A stretch of 33,889 nt of DNA, from NCBI GenBank assembly GCA_015060445.1, contig SUYL01000011.1:1-33889 (forward strand), read 5' to 3'. Under the pieces are notes generated by a model. That model made no database searches, was not told where the DNA came from, and saw nothing but the letters and a program-made list of their open reading frames with translations. The stretch comes from Bacteroidales bacterium. GTDB lineage: Bacteria > Bacteroidota > Bacteroidia > Bacteroidales > UBA932. Of this stretch, positions 1-12,708 are shown one piece after another. Positions within the stretch are counted from its first letter, which is position 1; the number at the start of each line of letters is the position of its first letter. Both the position numbers and the translations under genes were made by a program.

Positions 1-192
1 ATTTTCCTTTATGCATATGCCATTCTACGTTAGTCTGGCAAAGATAATTTCAAATCGGCGCGCTCCAAAAACCTCTGTAACTACCTAACATTCAATATTT
101 TCAAAGAACTTTTATAAATTTTTACCGGACACTAATGATCCAAAATATCAATAAAATGATATTCCACTCTTCCATTTATTTAAAAAATAAGT

Positions 193-200
193 TAAATTTG
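193..200 (+). promoter_or_regulatory. Candidate -7 promoter box upstream of the first nagA
   Basis: TAAATTTG matches the Bacteroidota -7 consensus TAnnTTTG and lies 25 bases before the chosen ATG, leaving a short leader. I see no good TTTG -33 element 19-21 bases upstream, so the call rests on the -7 box alone. The preceding 190 bases are AT-rich and contain no gene I can support. Confidence 0.4.
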
Positions 201-224
201 TATGTTATATAAAAATTGATAGAT

Positions 225-1382
225 ATGTTGACACAAATTATAAATGGAAAGATCCACACGCCACAAGGTTGGCTGAAGAACGGATCGGTAATCATTAATG
301 ACAATAAAATTCTTGAAGTTTCCAACTGTGATCTTGCCGTTGTAGGTGCCAAGATAGTTGATGCAAGGGGAATGTACATTGTTCCCGGTGGAGTTGAAAT
401 TCATGTGCACGGAGGTGGCGGAAGAGACTTTATGGAGGGTACTGAAGATGCATTCAGAACAGCCGTGGATGCACATATGCAACATGGTACGACCAGTATA
501 TTCCCTACCCTATCATCTTCAAGTATCCCTATGATCAGGGCAGCCGCACAGACAACCGAGAAACTGATGGCAGAGAAGGACAGTCCGGTTCTGGGCCTTC
601 ATCTTGAGGGGCATTACTTCAATATGAAAATGGCAGGCGGACAGATTCCTGAATATATAAAGAATCCTGATCCAAATGAGTATATTCCTCTTCTTGAGGA
701 GACAAACTGCATAAAGAGATGGGATGCATCACCAGAACTTCCTGGAGCACTCCAGTTTGGAAAATATGTCTCTTCAAAAGGAATCCTTGTTTCAGTTGCC
801 CATACCCAGGCAGAATTTGATGACATTATGGCCGGTTACGAAGCGGGCTATACACATGCAACCCACTTCTATAACGCTATGCCAGGATTCCACAAGAAGA
901 ATGAATACAAGTATGAGGGTACTGTTGAGTCAATCTACCTGATGGATGATATGACAGTTGAAGCAATTGCAGATGGAATCCACGTTCCTCCAACAATTCT
1001 GAGACTTATCTACAAAGTTAAAGGTGTTGAAAAGACTGCACTAATTACAGATGCCCTTGCATGTGCTGCAAGTGACAGCAAAACTGCATTTGATCCAAGG
1101 GTAATAATTGAGGACGGAGTATGCAAACTGGCAGACAGATCTGCCTTGGCAGGAAGTATTGCAACAATGGACCGTCTTATACAGACAATGACATTCAAGG
1201 CCGAGGTCCCTCTGTTTGATGTTTGCAGAATGATCTCAGAGACACCTGCAAAGATAATGGGTGTTTATGACAGGAAAGGTTCCCTTGAGAGGGGAAAAGA
1301 TGCTGACATCCTTCTTCTGGACAAGAATCTTGATGTTAAGGCTGTTTGGGCAATGGGTAAACTGGTAAAGAACTTTGAGTAA
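225..1382 (+). CDS. nagA: N-acetylglucosamine-6-phosphate deacetylase (active copy)
   Basis: Cytosolic amidohydrolase that deacetylates GlcNAc-6-P to glucosamine-6-P and acetate in amino-sugar catabolism. The 385-residue protein is normal family length. Metal and catalytic residues are all visible: the H-x-H pair H60/H62 (IHVHGGGG), E128 in LHLEG, H193 in VAHT, H214 in HATHFYNAM and the catalytic Asp D276 in LITDA. H253 in DGIHV corresponds to the E. coli residue donated across the dimer interface to the substrate phosphate. An in-frame TTG at 216 would add three residues. The ATG at 225 is preferred because the downstream paralogue begins with the same MLTQIINGK. The paralogue follows after 9 bases. 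No nagB or kinase gene is adjacent in the window. Family assignment is firm; the exact substrate is inferred. Confidence 0.93.
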   Translation: MLTQIINGKIHTPQGWLKNGSVIINDNKILEVSNCDLAVVGAKIVDARGMYIVPGGVEIHVHGGGGRDFMEGTEDAFRTAVDAHMQHGTTSIFPTLSSSSIPMIRAAAQTTEKLMAEKDSPVLGLHLEGHYFNMKMAGGQIPEYIKNPDPNEYIPLLEETNCIKRWDASPELPGALQFGKYVSSKGILVSVAHTQAEFDDIMAGYEAGYTHATHFYNAMPGFHKKNEYKYEGTVESIYLMDDMTVEAIADGIHVPPTILRLIYKVKGVEKTALITDALACAASDSKTAFDPRVIIEDGVCKLADRSALAGSIATMDRLIQTMTFKAEVPLFDVCRMISETPAKIMGVYDRKGSLERGKDADILLLDKNLDVKAVWAMGKLVKNFE

Positions 1383-1391
1383 AGTAATGTT

Positions 1392-2534
1392 ATGCTTACA
1401 CAAATAATCAATGGCAAAATACTTACTGCCAATGGCTGGCTGGAAGGCGGCTCCATAATCCTGAGCGATTCAAAAATTCTTGAAATTGCAAACAGTGACC
1501 TTCCAAGGGTAGGTGCAACAATAGTAGATGTAAGGGGGGACTATATCCTACCAGGGTTTGTGGCAATGAATATTCACGGCGGTGGAGGCCATGCATTCAA
1601 GGAGGGTACCCAAGAAGCATTTGACACTGCAGTAAAGACACACCTCAAACATGGTGCAACCACCATTTTCCCTACAATATACACTGCAAAGATTGAAAAG
1701 ATATACAATTCTGCAGCAGTGTGTGAGGAAATGCTGAAAGAGGGCAATTCACCTGTAAAAGGACTACATATTGCCGGACCATACTTCAACCCAAAAATGG
1801 TAAAAGGTTTTCCTGGAGCCAAGGATCCCGACAAGGAGGAGTATCTTAAGATACTTTCAGACATCTCCTGCATAAAGAGATGGGACTTGTCGCCTGAACT
1901 ACCTGGTGCTTATGAGATGGCAAAGATTCTCAAATGGAAAAACATTGTAGCTGGAATTACACATACACAGGCCGAGTTTGAAGTTGTAAGGGATGCTTTT
2001 GATGCCGGATTCAGCCATGTTTCACAGTTGTACAACTCAATGCCGGGATTCCATAAGCGTGGTGAATACAAATACGAAGGTACTGTTGAGAGTGTACTCC
2101 TTCTGGATGATATGAGTGTTGAGGTTATTGCAGATGGGAAACATCTTCCTGCCACCATTTTGAGACTTGTTTACAAACTCAAAGGTGCAGATATGATGTC
2201 ACTTGTAACTTGTGCATTGAAATATGCTGATTTCAATGGGGAACTGGAACCTGACTCAGATTTCATAATTGAGGACGGTGTGTGCAAACTTAAGGACCAC
2301 TCCTCATTGGCAGGCAGTCTTGCCACAATGGACAAGGTTGTACAGGTTGCAGTAGCAGCAGGTATTCCACTTGAGGATGCGGTAAAAATGGCATCTGCTA
2401 CCCCTGCAAAAGTGATGAACTGCTACGACAGGGTAGGTTCACTTGAAGAGGGTAAAGACGCAGATATAGTTTTAATGAATAAAGAATTGGAAGTTACTGG
2501 TGTTTGGACACAGGGTATCAGGTATAATGGTTAG
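1392..2534 (+). CDS. NagA-family paralogue with degenerate active site (probable pseudoenzyme)
   Basis: Full-length (380 residues), uninterrupted and clearly a tandem duplicate of the upstream gene: same N-terminus MLTQIINGK and shared blocks such as CIKRWD, PELPGA, PGFHK and KYEGTVES. Four residues of the metal/catalytic set are replaced. The first His of H-x-H is N60, the metal Glu is A128 (HIAGP), the second histidine ligand is Q212 (VSQLYNSM) and the catalytic Asp is C274 (LVTCAL). H62, H191 and the dimer-interface histidine H251 (DGKHL) remain. Deacetylase activity is therefore unlikely. Retention of the fold and of the interface histidine suggests a structural or regulatory partner of NagA, or a binding protein, but that is inference. 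It lies 9 bases after nagA and overlaps the next gene by 8 bases. Confidence 0.9.
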   Translation: MLTQIINGKILTANGWLEGGSIILSDSKILEIANSDLPRVGATIVDVRGDYILPGFVAMNIHGGGGHAFKEGTQEAFDTAVKTHLKHGATTIFPTIYTAKIEKIYNSAAVCEEMLKEGNSPVKGLHIAGPYFNPKMVKGFPGAKDPDKEEYLKILSDISCIKRWDLSPELPGAYEMAKILKWKNIVAGITHTQAEFEVVRDAFDAGFSHVSQLYNSMPGFHKRGEYKYEGTVESVLLLDDMSVEVIADGKHLPATILRLVYKLKGADMMSLVTCALKYADFNGELEPDSDFIIEDGVCKLKDHSSLAGSLATMDKVVQVAVAAGIPLEDAVKMASATPAKVMNCYDRVGSLEEGKDADIVLMNKELEVTGVWTQGIRYNG

Positions 2535-3495
2535 AGCAAGTTTCCTGCTGGTTTTTCTGCTGTGCATGATTTCATGCTCGTCTCCACTTGAAAAATCGGT
2601 CCTTTCACCTTTGACATCCAAAGAATTGGATAAAGTTGCCGGGGAGGATGCATCATTCCTGGCAACTTATTCTATTGTAGAGGAGAAATCCAACTACATC
2701 CATACACCAGCAGATTCTGCCAGGTGGAAAGCAATTACATACAAAAGGCTCCACTCCTATATTACAACTATAAAGAGTGCAGAACTAAACTCCCCCCTTT
2801 TCACACAGTTGAGGGAGAAATGGGAAAAGATCTACAACAGCAACAACTATAAGGTTGACAGCACAATTTTATATTGGAACAACTACCTGAAAACCAATTC
2901 ACCGGACTCTCTTATATCAATACAATATGAAGGGGCAGAGACTGAAAGGATAAGGAACAGGAACAAACAGATTGACACACTTGTAAAGGCAAAATTACGT
3001 CTGAAACCTCTCAAGTTTCCCATAGACTCTGTAAAACTGCTCTACTCCCTTGCATCTGCAGAGATGAGTCCCATATACTATTACCCTTTCAATGGTGAAT
3101 TGAACCATATCAACTACAGGAAGAGACTCAAGGATGACGTTCTTGTAAAGGTATTCCCGTATCTCCTCCCAAACATAAAGAAAAGGGTTGCAGAAGGTGA
3201 TTCATCTGTACTGTTCCAATACACCGTACATTCGGTTTACTCTTCAGGCAAGTGCTACAGTACAGATTCCCTCAATAAAGATCTTCCCAAGAGTGTAATG
3301 CAGTACAACTCATCTAAAGCGGCAGCAGTTGACGGTCAGCCGTTTGATGAACTCTATTACAGGGAGAAAATAATAAAGGAACTGATAAACCCTTCTTTCA
3401 TTCCGCAAAGTGCATATATAAAGATTAATGCAGAGCAATATTACCGCCAGATAGACTCCCTGGTTTTCAGTTACACAAACCTCAATGGAGAGTGA
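2527..3495 (+). CDS. Putative lipoprotein of unknown function
   Basis: I do not recognise the family. The 322-residue protein starts with a short charged N-terminus (MVRAS), a hydrophobic stretch to residue 16 and C17 followed by SSP, which fits a Bacteroidota lipoprotein signal. The mature part is hydrophilic, probably helical, rich in Tyr, Lys and Ser, with no repeats or metal motifs that I can see. An in-frame GTG at 2500 would add nine non-signal residues. The ATG at 2527 is preferred because it places the hydrophobic segment at the N-terminus. The start lies inside the end of the nagA paralogue (8-base overlap), so translation is probably coupled. The 3' end overlaps the convergent cyclo-ligase gene by 25 bases. 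Confidence 0.75.
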   Translation: MVRASFLLVFLLCMISCSSPLEKSVLSPLTSKELDKVAGEDASFLATYSIVEEKSNYIHTPADSARWKAITYKRLHSYITTIKSAELNSPLFTQLREKWEKIYNSNNYKVDSTILYWNNYLKTNSPDSLISIQYEGAETERIRNRNKQIDTLVKAKLRLKPLKFPIDSVKLLYSLASAEMSPIYYYPFNGELNHINYRKRLKDDVLVKVFPYLLPNIKKRVAEGDSSVLFQYTVHSVYSSGKCYSTDSLNKDLPKSVMQYNSSKAAAVDGQPFDELYYREKIIKELINPSFIPQSAYIKINAEQYYRQIDSLVFSYTNLNGE

Positions 3496-9372: not shown

Positions 9373-10704
9373 TTATTTCATCTTCCTGAAATGATAGAAC
9401 ATCATTGATGAAGAGATAAGGCATGCTATGGCATCTGCAGCCGGCATACTGGCCCAAATGCCGTTAAGGGAGAAGAATTGCGGAAGAATATACATTAACG
9501 GGAGAAGTATCAGAAGTTGCCTTGTAAGGGAGAGGAAAATGGCTGTTCCAGCATAACCTATACTCCTGAAGAAATTTGATGTAACCATTTGGAATCCTAC
9601 TATAGGATAAAACATGAAGGATATTCTCACACCTTGTACGGCTGTCTGCACAAGTTCCCGGTCAGATGTAAACATCATTACAAGCGCCTTGGGAAACAGT
9701 TGTCCAATGAGAAAGCCTGTGGTGGTTACAACTGTGGCACACAATATTGTTGCCATAACTACCTTTTTGAGTCTGTCGTAGAGTCTTGCTCCAAAATTGT
9801 AACTGGCAATGGGCTGCATTCCCTGGTTCAGCCCCATTACAACCATCATAAAAAGGAAAGTGAGTTTATGTACAATGCCATATGCAGCAATTGCCATATC
9901 CCCACCATATTGTTTCAGTCCCTGATTGAATATTATTACTACAAGGCAAGCGGTGGAATTCATGAAGAATGGGGACATTCCAACAGAAAGAATCCTCCCG
10001 ACAATTAATTTGCATAGCCTGTATCCCCCTTTCTGAAAATGGACAACATGATTTCTGTCGCTCAATACAAAAATGACCCAGGCCAAAGAGATGCTCTGTG
10101 CAATAATGGTTGCAATGGCTGCCCCCCTTATTCCCCACAGATATATTAAAAGGGGATCAAGTAAGGCATTTATCAACACTGTATATATTGAAGCGTTCAT
10201 TGCCTTTTTGGGAAGACCTGTAGCCCTCAGAACTGCATTAAGGGCAAAATATGTATGGGAGATTATATTTCCTCCAAGTATAACCTGCATATACTCCCTT
10301 GCAGGTGCAATTGTATTCTCACTGGCTCCAAAGAAATAAAGAATAGGATCCAGAAATGTGAGGACACCAGCCATATACAATATGCCAATGATGAAATTGA
10401 GTGTAACAACATTCCCCAAAACTTTCTGGGCCATATTGTAGTCTTTCTTTCCTAGAAAAATTCCGATATTGGCAGATGCACCTACAGCAATGAGGGAACT
10501 GAAGGCGGTCCCCAGGTTCATAAGGGGAAAAGTAAGGGCAAGACCGGCAAGGGCATATCCCCCGGCAAACTGACCAATGAATATGCTGTCCACCAGATTG
10601 TACAACGAGTTGCAACTCATTGCTATAATTGACGGAACAGCATACTGCACAAGCAGTCTGCTTATCTTCTCTGTTCCAAGTTCTGTAGGTACGCCGGCTT
10701 GCAT
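9373..10704 (-). CDS. MATE-family efflux transporter (downstream copy)
   Basis: The 443-residue protein has about twelve hydrophobic segments and MatE family blocks: GVPTELGTEKISRLL at the N-terminus, SLYNLVDSIFIGQ, GLNQGMQPIASYNFGA at the start of the second half. It would export cationic compounds in exchange for Na+ or H+. It is strongly similar throughout to the MATE gene at 11347-12708, indicating duplication within the operon. It begins 5 bases after the cytidylate-kinase-like gene. The start codon (ATG, MQAGVPTELG) is supported by alignment with MAVAGVPTELG of the other copy. Confidence 0.9.
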   Translation of the reverse strand: MQAGVPTELGTEKISRLLVQYAVPSIIAMSCNSLYNLVDSIFIGQFAGGYALAGLALTFPLMNLGTAFSSLIAVGASANIGIFLGKKDYNMAQKVLGNVVTLNFIIGILYMAGVLTFLDPILYFFGASENTIAPAREYMQVILGGNIISHTYFALNAVLRATGLPKKAMNASIYTVLINALLDPLLIYLWGIRGAAIATIIAQSISLAWVIFVLSDRNHVVHFQKGGYRLCKLIVGRILSVGMSPFFMNSTACLVVIIFNQGLKQYGGDMAIAAYGIVHKLTFLFMMVVMGLNQGMQPIASYNFGARLYDRLKKVVMATILCATVVTTTGFLIGQLFPKALVMMFTSDRELVQTAVQGVRISFMFYPIVGFQMVTSNFFRSIGYAGTAIFLSLTRQLLILLPLMYILPQFFSLNGIWASMPAADAIACLISSSMMFYHFRKMK

Positions 10705-10709
10705 TTCAA

Positions 10710-11357
10710 TTACTTAATCCATCCTTTGCTGTAAAGAACATCCTTTATAATTTTCACACACCCCTCAATTCCAAACAAAGAAGAATTCAGACACAAATCG
10801 TATGATGCAGACGCACCCCATTGTTTGTATGTGAAATAATTATAATATGTCTCCCTTTTTGAGTCACTTTTCTCAAGAAGATCCAACATCTCTTCCATTG
10901 AATATCTCTCTGCATCTGGAATCTTGTTGCACTCAAGAAGCCTTTCGACCCTATCTTCTCCCGTTGCAGTTATAAATACATTGAGACAGGCATTCCTCTC
11001 CCTGAGTATATAATCAGCACATCTTCCTACAAATATTGCAGATTCCCTGTTTGCAATATGCTGGATACACTCACTCTGTATCCTGAAAAGTTCCTCCCTG
11101 CTTATTCCCGACGAAGTGCCGTATTCTGTATACAGGGACCCCATAATTCCAGAAAAGAATCCGGAAATGAACTTTGAACCGCGTCTTTCATCTATATTGG
11201 CAAAAATCTCCTTGCTCAAACCGCTCTCCTTTGCAGCAATATCCAGCAACTGTTTGTCATAGAATGGAATACCGAACTCCTCCGACAACCTTTTTGCTAT
11301 TTCAAGTCCGCCTGCACCTTTCTGGCGGCCAATTGTAATGTAGAATTTAGTTTCCAT
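10710..11357 (-). CDS. Cytidylate kinase-like family protein
   Basis: The 215-residue protein begins with a nucleotide-binding strand and loop YITIGRQKGAGGLEIAKRLS (residues 6-25), then GIPFYDKQLLDIAAKESGLS. This is the pattern of the cytidylate-kinase-like (AAK6/Cmk-like) family, in which the P-loop departs from the canonical GKS/T form. FVGRCADYIL in the middle also fits. The true phosphate acceptor of this family is not established, so I do not call it cmk. Its start overlaps the end of the upstream MATE gene by 11 bases and the second MATE gene follows after 5 bases, so all three are one operon. Confidence 0.82.
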   Translation of the reverse strand: METKFYITIGRQKGAGGLEIAKRLSEEFGIPFYDKQLLDIAAKESGLSKEIFANIDERRGSKFISGFFSGIMGSLYTEYGTSSGISREELFRIQSECIQHIANRESAIFVGRCADYILRERNACLNVFITATGEDRVERLLECNKIPDAERYSMEEMLDLLEKSDSKRETYYNYFTYKQWGASASYDLCLNSSLFGIEGCVKIIKDVLYSKGWIK

Positions 11358-12708
11358 TGTCTATACCTTTTTTAAATTTCTTCAATTGGGAATAAAGCAT
11401 TGTAAATGACACCATACTTGAAAGGGCATCTGCTACAGGCATACTCATCCATATTCCGTTTGCCTGGAAAAAGTGAGGAAGCACCAGCAGACATGGCAGC
11501 AAAAATATCAGTTGCCTGGTCAATGAAAGGAACACTGCCTTGCCGGCCATGCCTACACTCTGGAAGAAATTGCCCGTTACCATCTGGAACCCTACTATCG
11601 GGAAGAATGCAAAGACAATCCTCATTCCTGATATTGAATGCTGTATGAGGTCCTCATCAGTTGTAAAAATCATTACAAGTTGCCTTGGAAATATCTCCGC
11701 TACAAGAAAGCCGAAGGTCATGATAACAGTAGCACAGAGGATAGTAAGTTTCAGTACTCTGTCAACCCTGTCATATTGTTTTGCGCCAAAGTTGAATCCC
11801 GCAATAGGCTGCATTCCCTGATTGAGTCCCATAACAATCATTACAAAAACAAATGAAATGCGGTTTACAATTCCGTATGCTCCTATAGCAAGGTCTCCTC
11901 CATGCCTCTGCAATCCCTGGTTTATGAGAATCACTATAAGACATGCTGCAGTATTCATGAAGAACGGTGCCATTCCTATAGAAATAACATCCTTTACAAT
12001 TCTTGTTTTGAGTTTGTAGATTCCTCGCTTAAAATGAATTACAAGTTTTTTGTCGGAGAATATCTTTGCAATCCACACCAATGCAATGGATTGTGCAATG
12101 ATTGTTGCAATTGCCGCCCCCTTTATTCCCCAGTCCAGAACATATATGAAAATTGGATCAAGCACTGTATTAATTACGACAGTATATATGGTAGCCATCA
12201 TTGCCTTTTTGGGAAGCCCGGCAGAACGCATTACGGCGTTCAGACCCAGATACATATGAGTAATTATATTTCCAATGAGGATAATTGTCATATAATCCCT
12301 TGCATATCCTATTGTATTTTCACTGGCCCCGAAGAAATATAGAATGGGGTCCAGAAATGCAAGAAAGACAACCGTATATACCAGTCCAATTATTGTATTG
12401 AGAGTTACAACATTACCCAATACCTTCTGGGCCATTTCATAGTTCTTCTGCCCCAGAAGCATAGAGATTGTTGCAGACGCACCTACACCCACCAACGCTC
12501 CAAATGCTGCTCCAAGATTCATAAGCGGGAATGTAAGAGCAAGTCCAGCAATTGCAAACTTGCCTACTCCATGCCCAATAAAGATGCTGTCCACCATATT
12601 GTAAAGCGAGGATGCTGTCATAGCAATAATTGCCGGAACAGCATATTGCCTCAATAACCTGGACACTTTTTCAGTCCCCAATTCTGTAGGAACTCCTGCT
12701 ACTGCCAT
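11347..12708 (-). CDS. MATE-family efflux transporter (upstream copy)
   Basis: The 453-residue multidrug-and-toxin-extrusion family membrane protein has about twelve hydrophobic segments. Signature blocks include SLYNMVDSIFIGHGVGKFAI, ALTFPLMNLGAAFGAL, LGLNAVMRSAGLPKKAM and GLNQGMQPIAGFNFGAKQYD. It is first in the operon and shares most of these blocks with the copy at 9373-10704. The ATG at 12708 lies about 28 bases downstream of a -7 box at 12744-12737. The 3' end overlaps the kinase-like gene by 11 bases. The exported compound is unknown. Confidence 0.9.
   Translation of the reverse strand: MAVAGVPTELGTEKVSRLLRQYAVPAIIAMTASSLYNMVDSIFIGHGVGKFAIAGLALTFPLMNLGAAFGALVGVGASATISMLLGQKNYEMAQKVLGNVVTLNTIIGLVYTVVFLAFLDPILYFFGASENTIGYARDYMTIILIGNIITHMYLGLNAVMRSAGLPKKAMMATIYTVVINTVLDPIFIYVLDWGIKGAAIATIIAQSIALVWIAKIFSDKKLVIHFKRGIYKLKTRIVKDVISIGMAPFFMNTAACLIVILINQGLQRHGGDLAIGAYGIVNRISFVFVMIVMGLNQGMQPIAGFNFGAKQYDRVDRVLKLTILCATVIMTFGFLVAEIFPRQLVMIFTTDEDLIQHSISGMRIVFAFFPIVGFQMVTGNFFQSVGMAGKAVFLSLTRQLIFLLPCLLVLPHFFQANGIWMSMPVADALSSMVSFTMLYSQLKKFKKGIDNGN

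Follow-up and report, generated by a model that had tools for sequence, protein, structure and literature searches.

The window analysed here, a stretch of 33,889 nt, is contig C64 of a Bacteroidales genome of 2.18 Mb (67 contigs, 87% complete). Its first complete gene is an intact nagA (positions 225–1382, plus strand; ATG at 225, the listed open reading frame running from a TTG at 216). This gene scored 254.7 bits against TIGR00221, the NCBIfam equivalog for nagA (cut-off 225.65 bits), and every NagA active-site residue that was checked is present, including the HxH motif, the metal Glu, the two His and the catalytic Asp (HHEHHD). A second copy of the gene (1392–2534, plus strand) begins 9 bp after the nagA stop codon; it starts with an ATG and codes for 380 amino acids with no internal stops. 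The next open reading frame (2527–3495, plus strand) starts at an ATG and shares 8 bases with the end of the second copy. Its product appears by eye to carry a lipoprotein signal, and a Pfam search with it gave no match. The lipoprotein-like frame follows the pair in five of the six same-genus relatives with sequence at this point (it is absent in G022), and it evolves fast, showing 48–59% identity to species whose second copies are 82–88% identical.

Upstream of nagA, TAAATTTG (window 193–200) resembles what we take to be the Bacteroides -7 promoter box. In the window's genome (G000), as in G012 and G018, the contig ends about 224–235 bases upstream of nagA (window 1–224; ends of L010 and L011). 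G012 and G018 have 129 bases in common at this break, with 99% identity, which suggests a repeat; the window end lacks these bases. The amino-sugar pathway continues in the window's genome, since nagB is present elsewhere in it (447.3 bits); the same genome also gives a nagB match that falls below the cut-off (G000:C41:17362–18057), in an open frame of 650 aa. In a Parabacteroides locus, the gene that follows the pair (L035:7377–9380) fuses a glucosamine-6-phosphate isomerase-like domain to a PIG-L de-N-acetylase-like domain. Further along the window, on the minus strand (9373–12708), a cytidylate-kinase-like gene lies between two genes for MatE-family transporters.

The two NagA copies are 54% identical over 378 columns, in agreement with the original prediction of a full-length paralogue adjoining an intact nagA. 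Aligning them also confirmed the four substitutions first noticed in the second copy (all coordinates on the plus strand): His60 is replaced by Asn, leaving Asn60-Ile-His62 as a remnant of the HxH motif (1569–1577), Ala128 takes the place of the bridging metal Glu (1773–1775), Gln212 that of a metal His (2025–2027), and Cys274 that of the catalytic Asp (2211–2213), a position held by Cys, Asn, Ala or Asp in relatives. In addition, the conserved Asp at position 68 is replaced by Ala, and the substrate loop, shortened by two residues, has lost its Gln. H62, H191, N215 and H251 are retained; among the metal Glu, the two His and the catalytic Asp, only H191 is left. Against TIGR00221 the second copy scored 212.8 bits, which is below the cut-off, while it scored 77.5 bits against the amidohydrolase superfamily profile PF01979 (cut-off 25). 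The best solved relatives of both copies are NagA structures, and a solved NagA chain matches the second copy at 2.4e-37. Absence of the first HxH His is not by itself necessarily fatal to activity: the NagA proteins of E. coli and V. cholerae carry QxN at this site, and M. marinum NagA mutated to QxN stays active with a 7-fold higher Km, as described in PMC6016474. To judge by its lost residues, the second copy is almost certainly catalytically inactive.

H251 was originally taken to be the histidine that in E. coli NagA reaches into the neighbouring subunit's active site. The accounts of two related enzymes do not support this. In MSNagA, the M. smegmatis enzyme, all metal ligands come from one subunit and Arg-219 of the other contacts the substrate phosphate, while His-244, the equivalent of H251, binds the sugar within its own subunit (PMC6016474). 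In human AMDHD2 the catalytic residues are contributed by one monomer and the phosphate contacts by both; the residues that reach the neighbour are His242* and Arg243*, whereas His272, the H251 equivalent, acts in its own monomer, and monomeric or H242A/R243A mutants are dead (PMC8970586). On these descriptions H251 was set aside as a trans residue. It is K222/R223 of the second copy that align with MSNagA Arg-219/Arg-220, a placement shared by the B. subtilis alignment; the 3EGJ and 6JKU alignments place the loop gap differently, and AMDHD2 was compared by description only. MSNagA Arg-220 points away from the ligand, and its M. marinum counterpart is required for activity (PMC6016474). By homology to MSNagA and AMDHD2, codons 217–234 of the second copy (2040–2093, plus strand), which include K222/R223, form a putative trans-acting phosphate loop.

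A search of 39 same-genus genomes gave a match of some kind in 11 and none in 28. The matches comprised eight tandem pairs, two genomes with the active copy only (G012 and G018) and one with a distant homologue (G035); three more tandem pairs were found in g228, another genus in the window's family. The family thus yielded 11 second copies, none of which retains the metal Glu (Glu-less copies); among the matches read for residues, all 11 adjoin an active copy. The gaps between the two genes measured 2–12 bp in the nine pairs read, which makes it probable that the copies are co-translated and, as a separate promoter would not fit between the genes, that the pair is co-produced. An active and a second copy occurred together in 15 of the 16 genomes behind the named loci, even when far apart (a contig end truncates one of the 15 active copies); the search of G440 gave a second copy only. 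In G012, G018 and G568 the active copy stands alone, and the flanks fetched for these genomes gave no second match of any strength worth noting as strong. The second copy is thus not obligatory, and an active NagA can presumably work as a homodimer. In the window's genus, the usual residue at the trans position is Lys for active copies and Arg for second copies; the three second copies of g228 carry Lys there. Loss of the trans Arg from the active copy was considered as proof of a division of labour and rejected: G012 and G018 have Lys there in the absence of a second copy, and g228 has Lys in both copies.

That the second copy is maintained rather than decaying, as originally proposed, was strongly supported, and a check of its orthologues for random substitutions or stops came out against decay. 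Open frames were found in all 11 Glu-less copies, including the eight of the window's genus (the G005 copy ends at a contig end; that of G573 has 386 aa, and its reported TAA lies outside the frame). Identity to the window's second copy was 82–88% for five same-genus copies and about 60% for two; the active copies are more conserved (82–97% identity to the window's, ten sequences). Codon models returned a dN/dS ratio (omega) of 0.056 along six second copies and of 0.016 along their six active partners; these are tree-wide values and approximate, since synonymous sites are saturated (many YN00 pairs gave nan and some NG86 dS values were saturated). Fixing omega at 1 lowered lnL from -4606 to -5233 (kappa was fixed at 2.0 in that run). 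Neutral decay of a redundant duplicate could accommodate the loss of active-site residues one by one and the lack of a second copy in G012, G018 and G568. Against it stand the omega of the second copies, their open frames and the 82–88% identity to five species despite saturated synonymous sites. These make neutral decay exceedingly improbable for this clade; it was rejected, and unconstrained decay is excluded. Essential catalytic residues have been lost under purifying selection, as in a pseudoenzyme, inactivity here being judged from sequence.

What the second copies spared was scored over 136 columns conserved in at least 97% of 134 intact copies. The alignment comprised the 11 Glu-less copies, of which that of G005 is cut at 325 aa by the contig end, and 163 distinct rows of the family, 134 of them intact, that had passed a filter on His226, Lys227 and Tyr/Phe233. 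In the Glu-less copies, changes were seen in 48 of the 66 cells of the six metal and catalytic columns and in 185 of the 1182 cells of 109 other conserved columns. The trans loop (active-copy residues 222–239, 15 conserved columns) showed none in its 165 cells, being untouched in 11 of 11 copies, and interface helix 9 showed one in 66. Columns with any change numbered 1 of 21 in loop plus helix versus 38 of 109 elsewhere (Fisher p = 0.004), for loop limits fixed after data inspection and sequences that are related to one another; columns changed in the majority of copies (0/15 in the loop versus 14/109 elsewhere) gave a non-significant p = 0.21. Part of the loop conservation is by construction, since the reference rows were filtered on three loop residues. 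The active copy is equally conserved in this loop, so that a folding constraint, rather than donation, could account for the sparing. The residue losses and the untouched loop together indicate that what the second copy's own site needs has been lost, while residues that a partner's site would draw on have been kept.

A wider genome scan covered the best 80 of 412 relatives, mostly Parabacteroides, Bacteroides, Phocaeicola, Mediterranea and other Bacteroidales. Two adjacent NagA open reading frames were found in 60 of these 80 loci and one in 20 (a few of them cut by contig ends). Residues were read after leaving out frames below 150 bits and loci repeating others, and active copies were told apart from second copies by their BLAST scores against the window's two proteins. 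The active copies read His-His-Glu-His-His-Asp in 68 of 68 cases. Among 74 second copies outside the window's genus, 52 were intact, eight carried His63→Asn, nine His63→Asn plus His217→Gln, four Asp279→Ala and one His196→Tyr (His63, Glu131, His217 and Asp279 correspond to N60, A128, Q212 and C274 of the window's second copy). Second copies of Bacteroides and Phocaeicola are mostly intact, as in Bacteroides faecis, and many of those of Parabacteroides lack His63, with or without loss of His217: His63 is lost in P. goldsteinii and P. gordonii, and both His63 and His217 in P. massiliensis. Among the rows read, loss of Glu131 was confined to the window's family, with eight cases in the window's genus (seven Ala, one Val) and three in g228 (Val); in these two genera Asp279 is mostly lost as well. 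The Glu-less copies L027–L031 come from metagenome assemblies, and the same states recur in separate assemblies. No Glu131 loss was found among the 28 second copies of a Tannerellaceae search, several of which are repeated sequences and several of whose Parabacteroides genomes repeat those of the genome scan. One of these 28, at L193 (1480–2637, minus strand), has lost His63, His196 and His217 and kept Glu and Asp, and is a further, independent degeneration.

In trees built from 92 and 73 hand-chosen rows, the second copies formed a single clade (44 and 52 rows, respectively; 100/100 in both), sister to the nagA copies. A recent, species-private duplication was rejected, since this clade includes Bacteroides, Phocaeicola and Parabacteroides. 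Ten of the 11 Glu-less copies grouped together (99/98); this clade and the G022 copy lay inside a Parabacteroides group already lacking His63 and His217 (22 rows, 99/95), and the two-residue deletion in the substrate loop is common to seven of nine Parabacteroides copies without these two His. The nesting and the shared deletion indicate that the active site was dismantled in steps. Branches of the Glu-less clade are long: those leading to the window's group measure 0.28 plus 0.55 changes per column. Both genes nest near Parabacteroides, and 28 of the 39 same-genus genomes gave no match; a Parabacteroides-like source therefore probably supplied the pair to the window's family, by what would be a transfer. 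The G022 second copy (L008:1501–2631, minus strand) lacks the metal Glu and at least two metal-site His, yet scores 257.2 bits against TIGR00221; automatic annotation would call it an active NagA, since this is above the cut-off of 225.65.

The trans Arg was present in 55 of 55 second copies of linked pairs outside the window's genus. A separate clade of second copies, seen at eight of the best 80 of 412 loci, carries either Cys or Asn there, and these loci contain no second NagA frame. Four of the eight (L071, L080, L082 and L090, all Bacteroidaceae) combine Asn at the trans Arg with catalytic Asp→Ala and intact metal ligands; the L071 locus starts 786 bases from a contig end, which limits the reading of its linkage. 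A link between an unlinked second copy and loss of the trans Arg was rejected, since the eight loci form one clade and are non-independent. This clade does indicate that the fate of the second copy differs between lineages.

The proposal that the second copy acts as a partner of NagA is the reading that best fits these data, although the reason first given for it, H251, is unsupported and the relatives with a lone nagA argue against an obligatory heterodimer. With its residue losses, its purifying selection, its tight tandem linkage in the window's lineage and its spared interface loop, the second copy has about an even chance of being a non-catalytic subunit that pairs with the adjacent active NagA. 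Both copies would be co-produced from one presumed transcription unit, and the second would assemble with the active NagA, as a heterodimer or hetero-oligomer, via the conserved TIM-barrel interface. Its K222/R223 might then be lent to the partner's active site as trans phosphate contacts. With its own metal site discarded, there would be one working site per dimer, and the second copy may stabilise or tune the active NagA. Weighing against this reading, besides the lone active copies, are the orientation of MSNagA Arg-220, the Lys at the trans position of the g228 second copies, and the retention by the Glu-less copies of residues of their own site (H191 and H251 in all 11, N215 in ten).

The second copy might instead be a regulatory or sensing subunit, whose metal-free pocket binds GlcNAc6P or GlcN6P and alters the activity or assembly of the active NagA, or of another protein, according to the sugar-phosphate level. 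Its own site retains sugar and phosphate residues (of the 11 Glu-less copies, all have H251 and ten have N215), and NagA mutants in the metal site or catalytic residue are described as still binding GlcNAc6P (PMC6016474). All 11 Glu-less copies, however, have an altered substrate loop that has been shortened by two residues, and profile searches gave no DNA-binding or signalling domain. No specific support was found for the sugar-phosphate sensor of the original prediction, and we consider this role unlikely.

A free-standing protein with a new, non-NagA role (as a homodimer, scaffold or moonlighting protein), kept in the operon by history, would fit the long Glu-less branches, the omega above that of the active copy and the unlinked second copies in Bacteroidaceae. 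An interface loop of NagA left untouched in all 11 copies, every one of which, among the matches read for residues, lies next to an active copy, is less easily explained in this way, and such a role appears quite improbable. Residual catalysis, or catalysis altered to use another metal arrangement or substrate, could draw on H191 (11/11) and H62 (6/11). The bridging Glu is gone from all 11 copies, though, and the E127A, D272A and AxA mutants of M. marinum NagA are described as being without activity (PMC6016474). Nor is there a conserved replacement at position 274, which is Cys in four copies, Ala in four, Asn in two and Asp in one; Cys274 as a new nucleophile was rejected on account of this variation, and catalysis by the second copy is very improbable.

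A wider form of the partner reading takes in Bacteroidaceae, Tannerellaceae and the window's family. The tandem-pair NagA would be a two-gene heteromer whose second site is being dismantled stepwise, from an intact state through loss of His63, then also of His217, to loss of Glu131 and Asp279. One working site would remain in each dimer, and selection would preserve the partner for its trans contacts alone. We advance it tentatively and regard it as possible rather than probable.

The second copy shares with NagA and AMDHD2 its family (TIGR00221; amidohydrolase superfamily), its full length, the interface loop and several pocket residues, and differs from them in lacking the bridging Glu, a metal His, the first HxH His and the catalytic Asp, and in scoring below the equivalog cut-off. 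Dihydroorotase belongs to the same superfamily. An inactive dihydroorotase homologue is described as a needed subunit of the Pseudomonas ATCase, and a related pseudo-DHO domain as lacking the zinc ligands (PMC7053772); unlike the case proposed here, the partner is another enzyme, ATCase, and not its own active paralogue. Caulobacter also has two NagA homologues in one genome, NagA1 and NagA2, but these are described as functionally redundant enzymes, 75% identical and encoded in separate clusters (PMC13046382). Another parallel is found in the trypanosomatid prozymes of deoxyhypusine synthase and AdoMetDC, in which a dead paralogue partners its active twin (PMC3663545, PMC5201418); the active sites of human deoxyhypusine synthase lie at the monomer interface (PMC3663545). 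Both there and here a dead duplicate stands beside an active enzyme. The active subunit of the prozyme systems is grossly impaired alone and the complex has been demonstrated, whereas here lone active copies occur and the complex is a proposed one. The prozyme traits seen here are linkage, co-occurrence and interface sparing only; the further expectation that the active paralogue never stands alone, which is not strictly defining, does not hold in G012, G018 and G568. A literature search that covered few subscription papers returned no report of a dead NagA partner, nor any on BT_0675/BT_0676, which we take to be a NagA pair. Dead-paralogue partners are thus already known as a kind; the NagA instance, with its graded series, appears to be new.

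If true, gut Bacteroidales would possess a dead-partner version of a central amino-sugar enzyme, together with living intermediates of the loss of its active site. The passage from homodimer to heteromer would then be testable within one enzyme, with its earlier steps available in named, cultured species.
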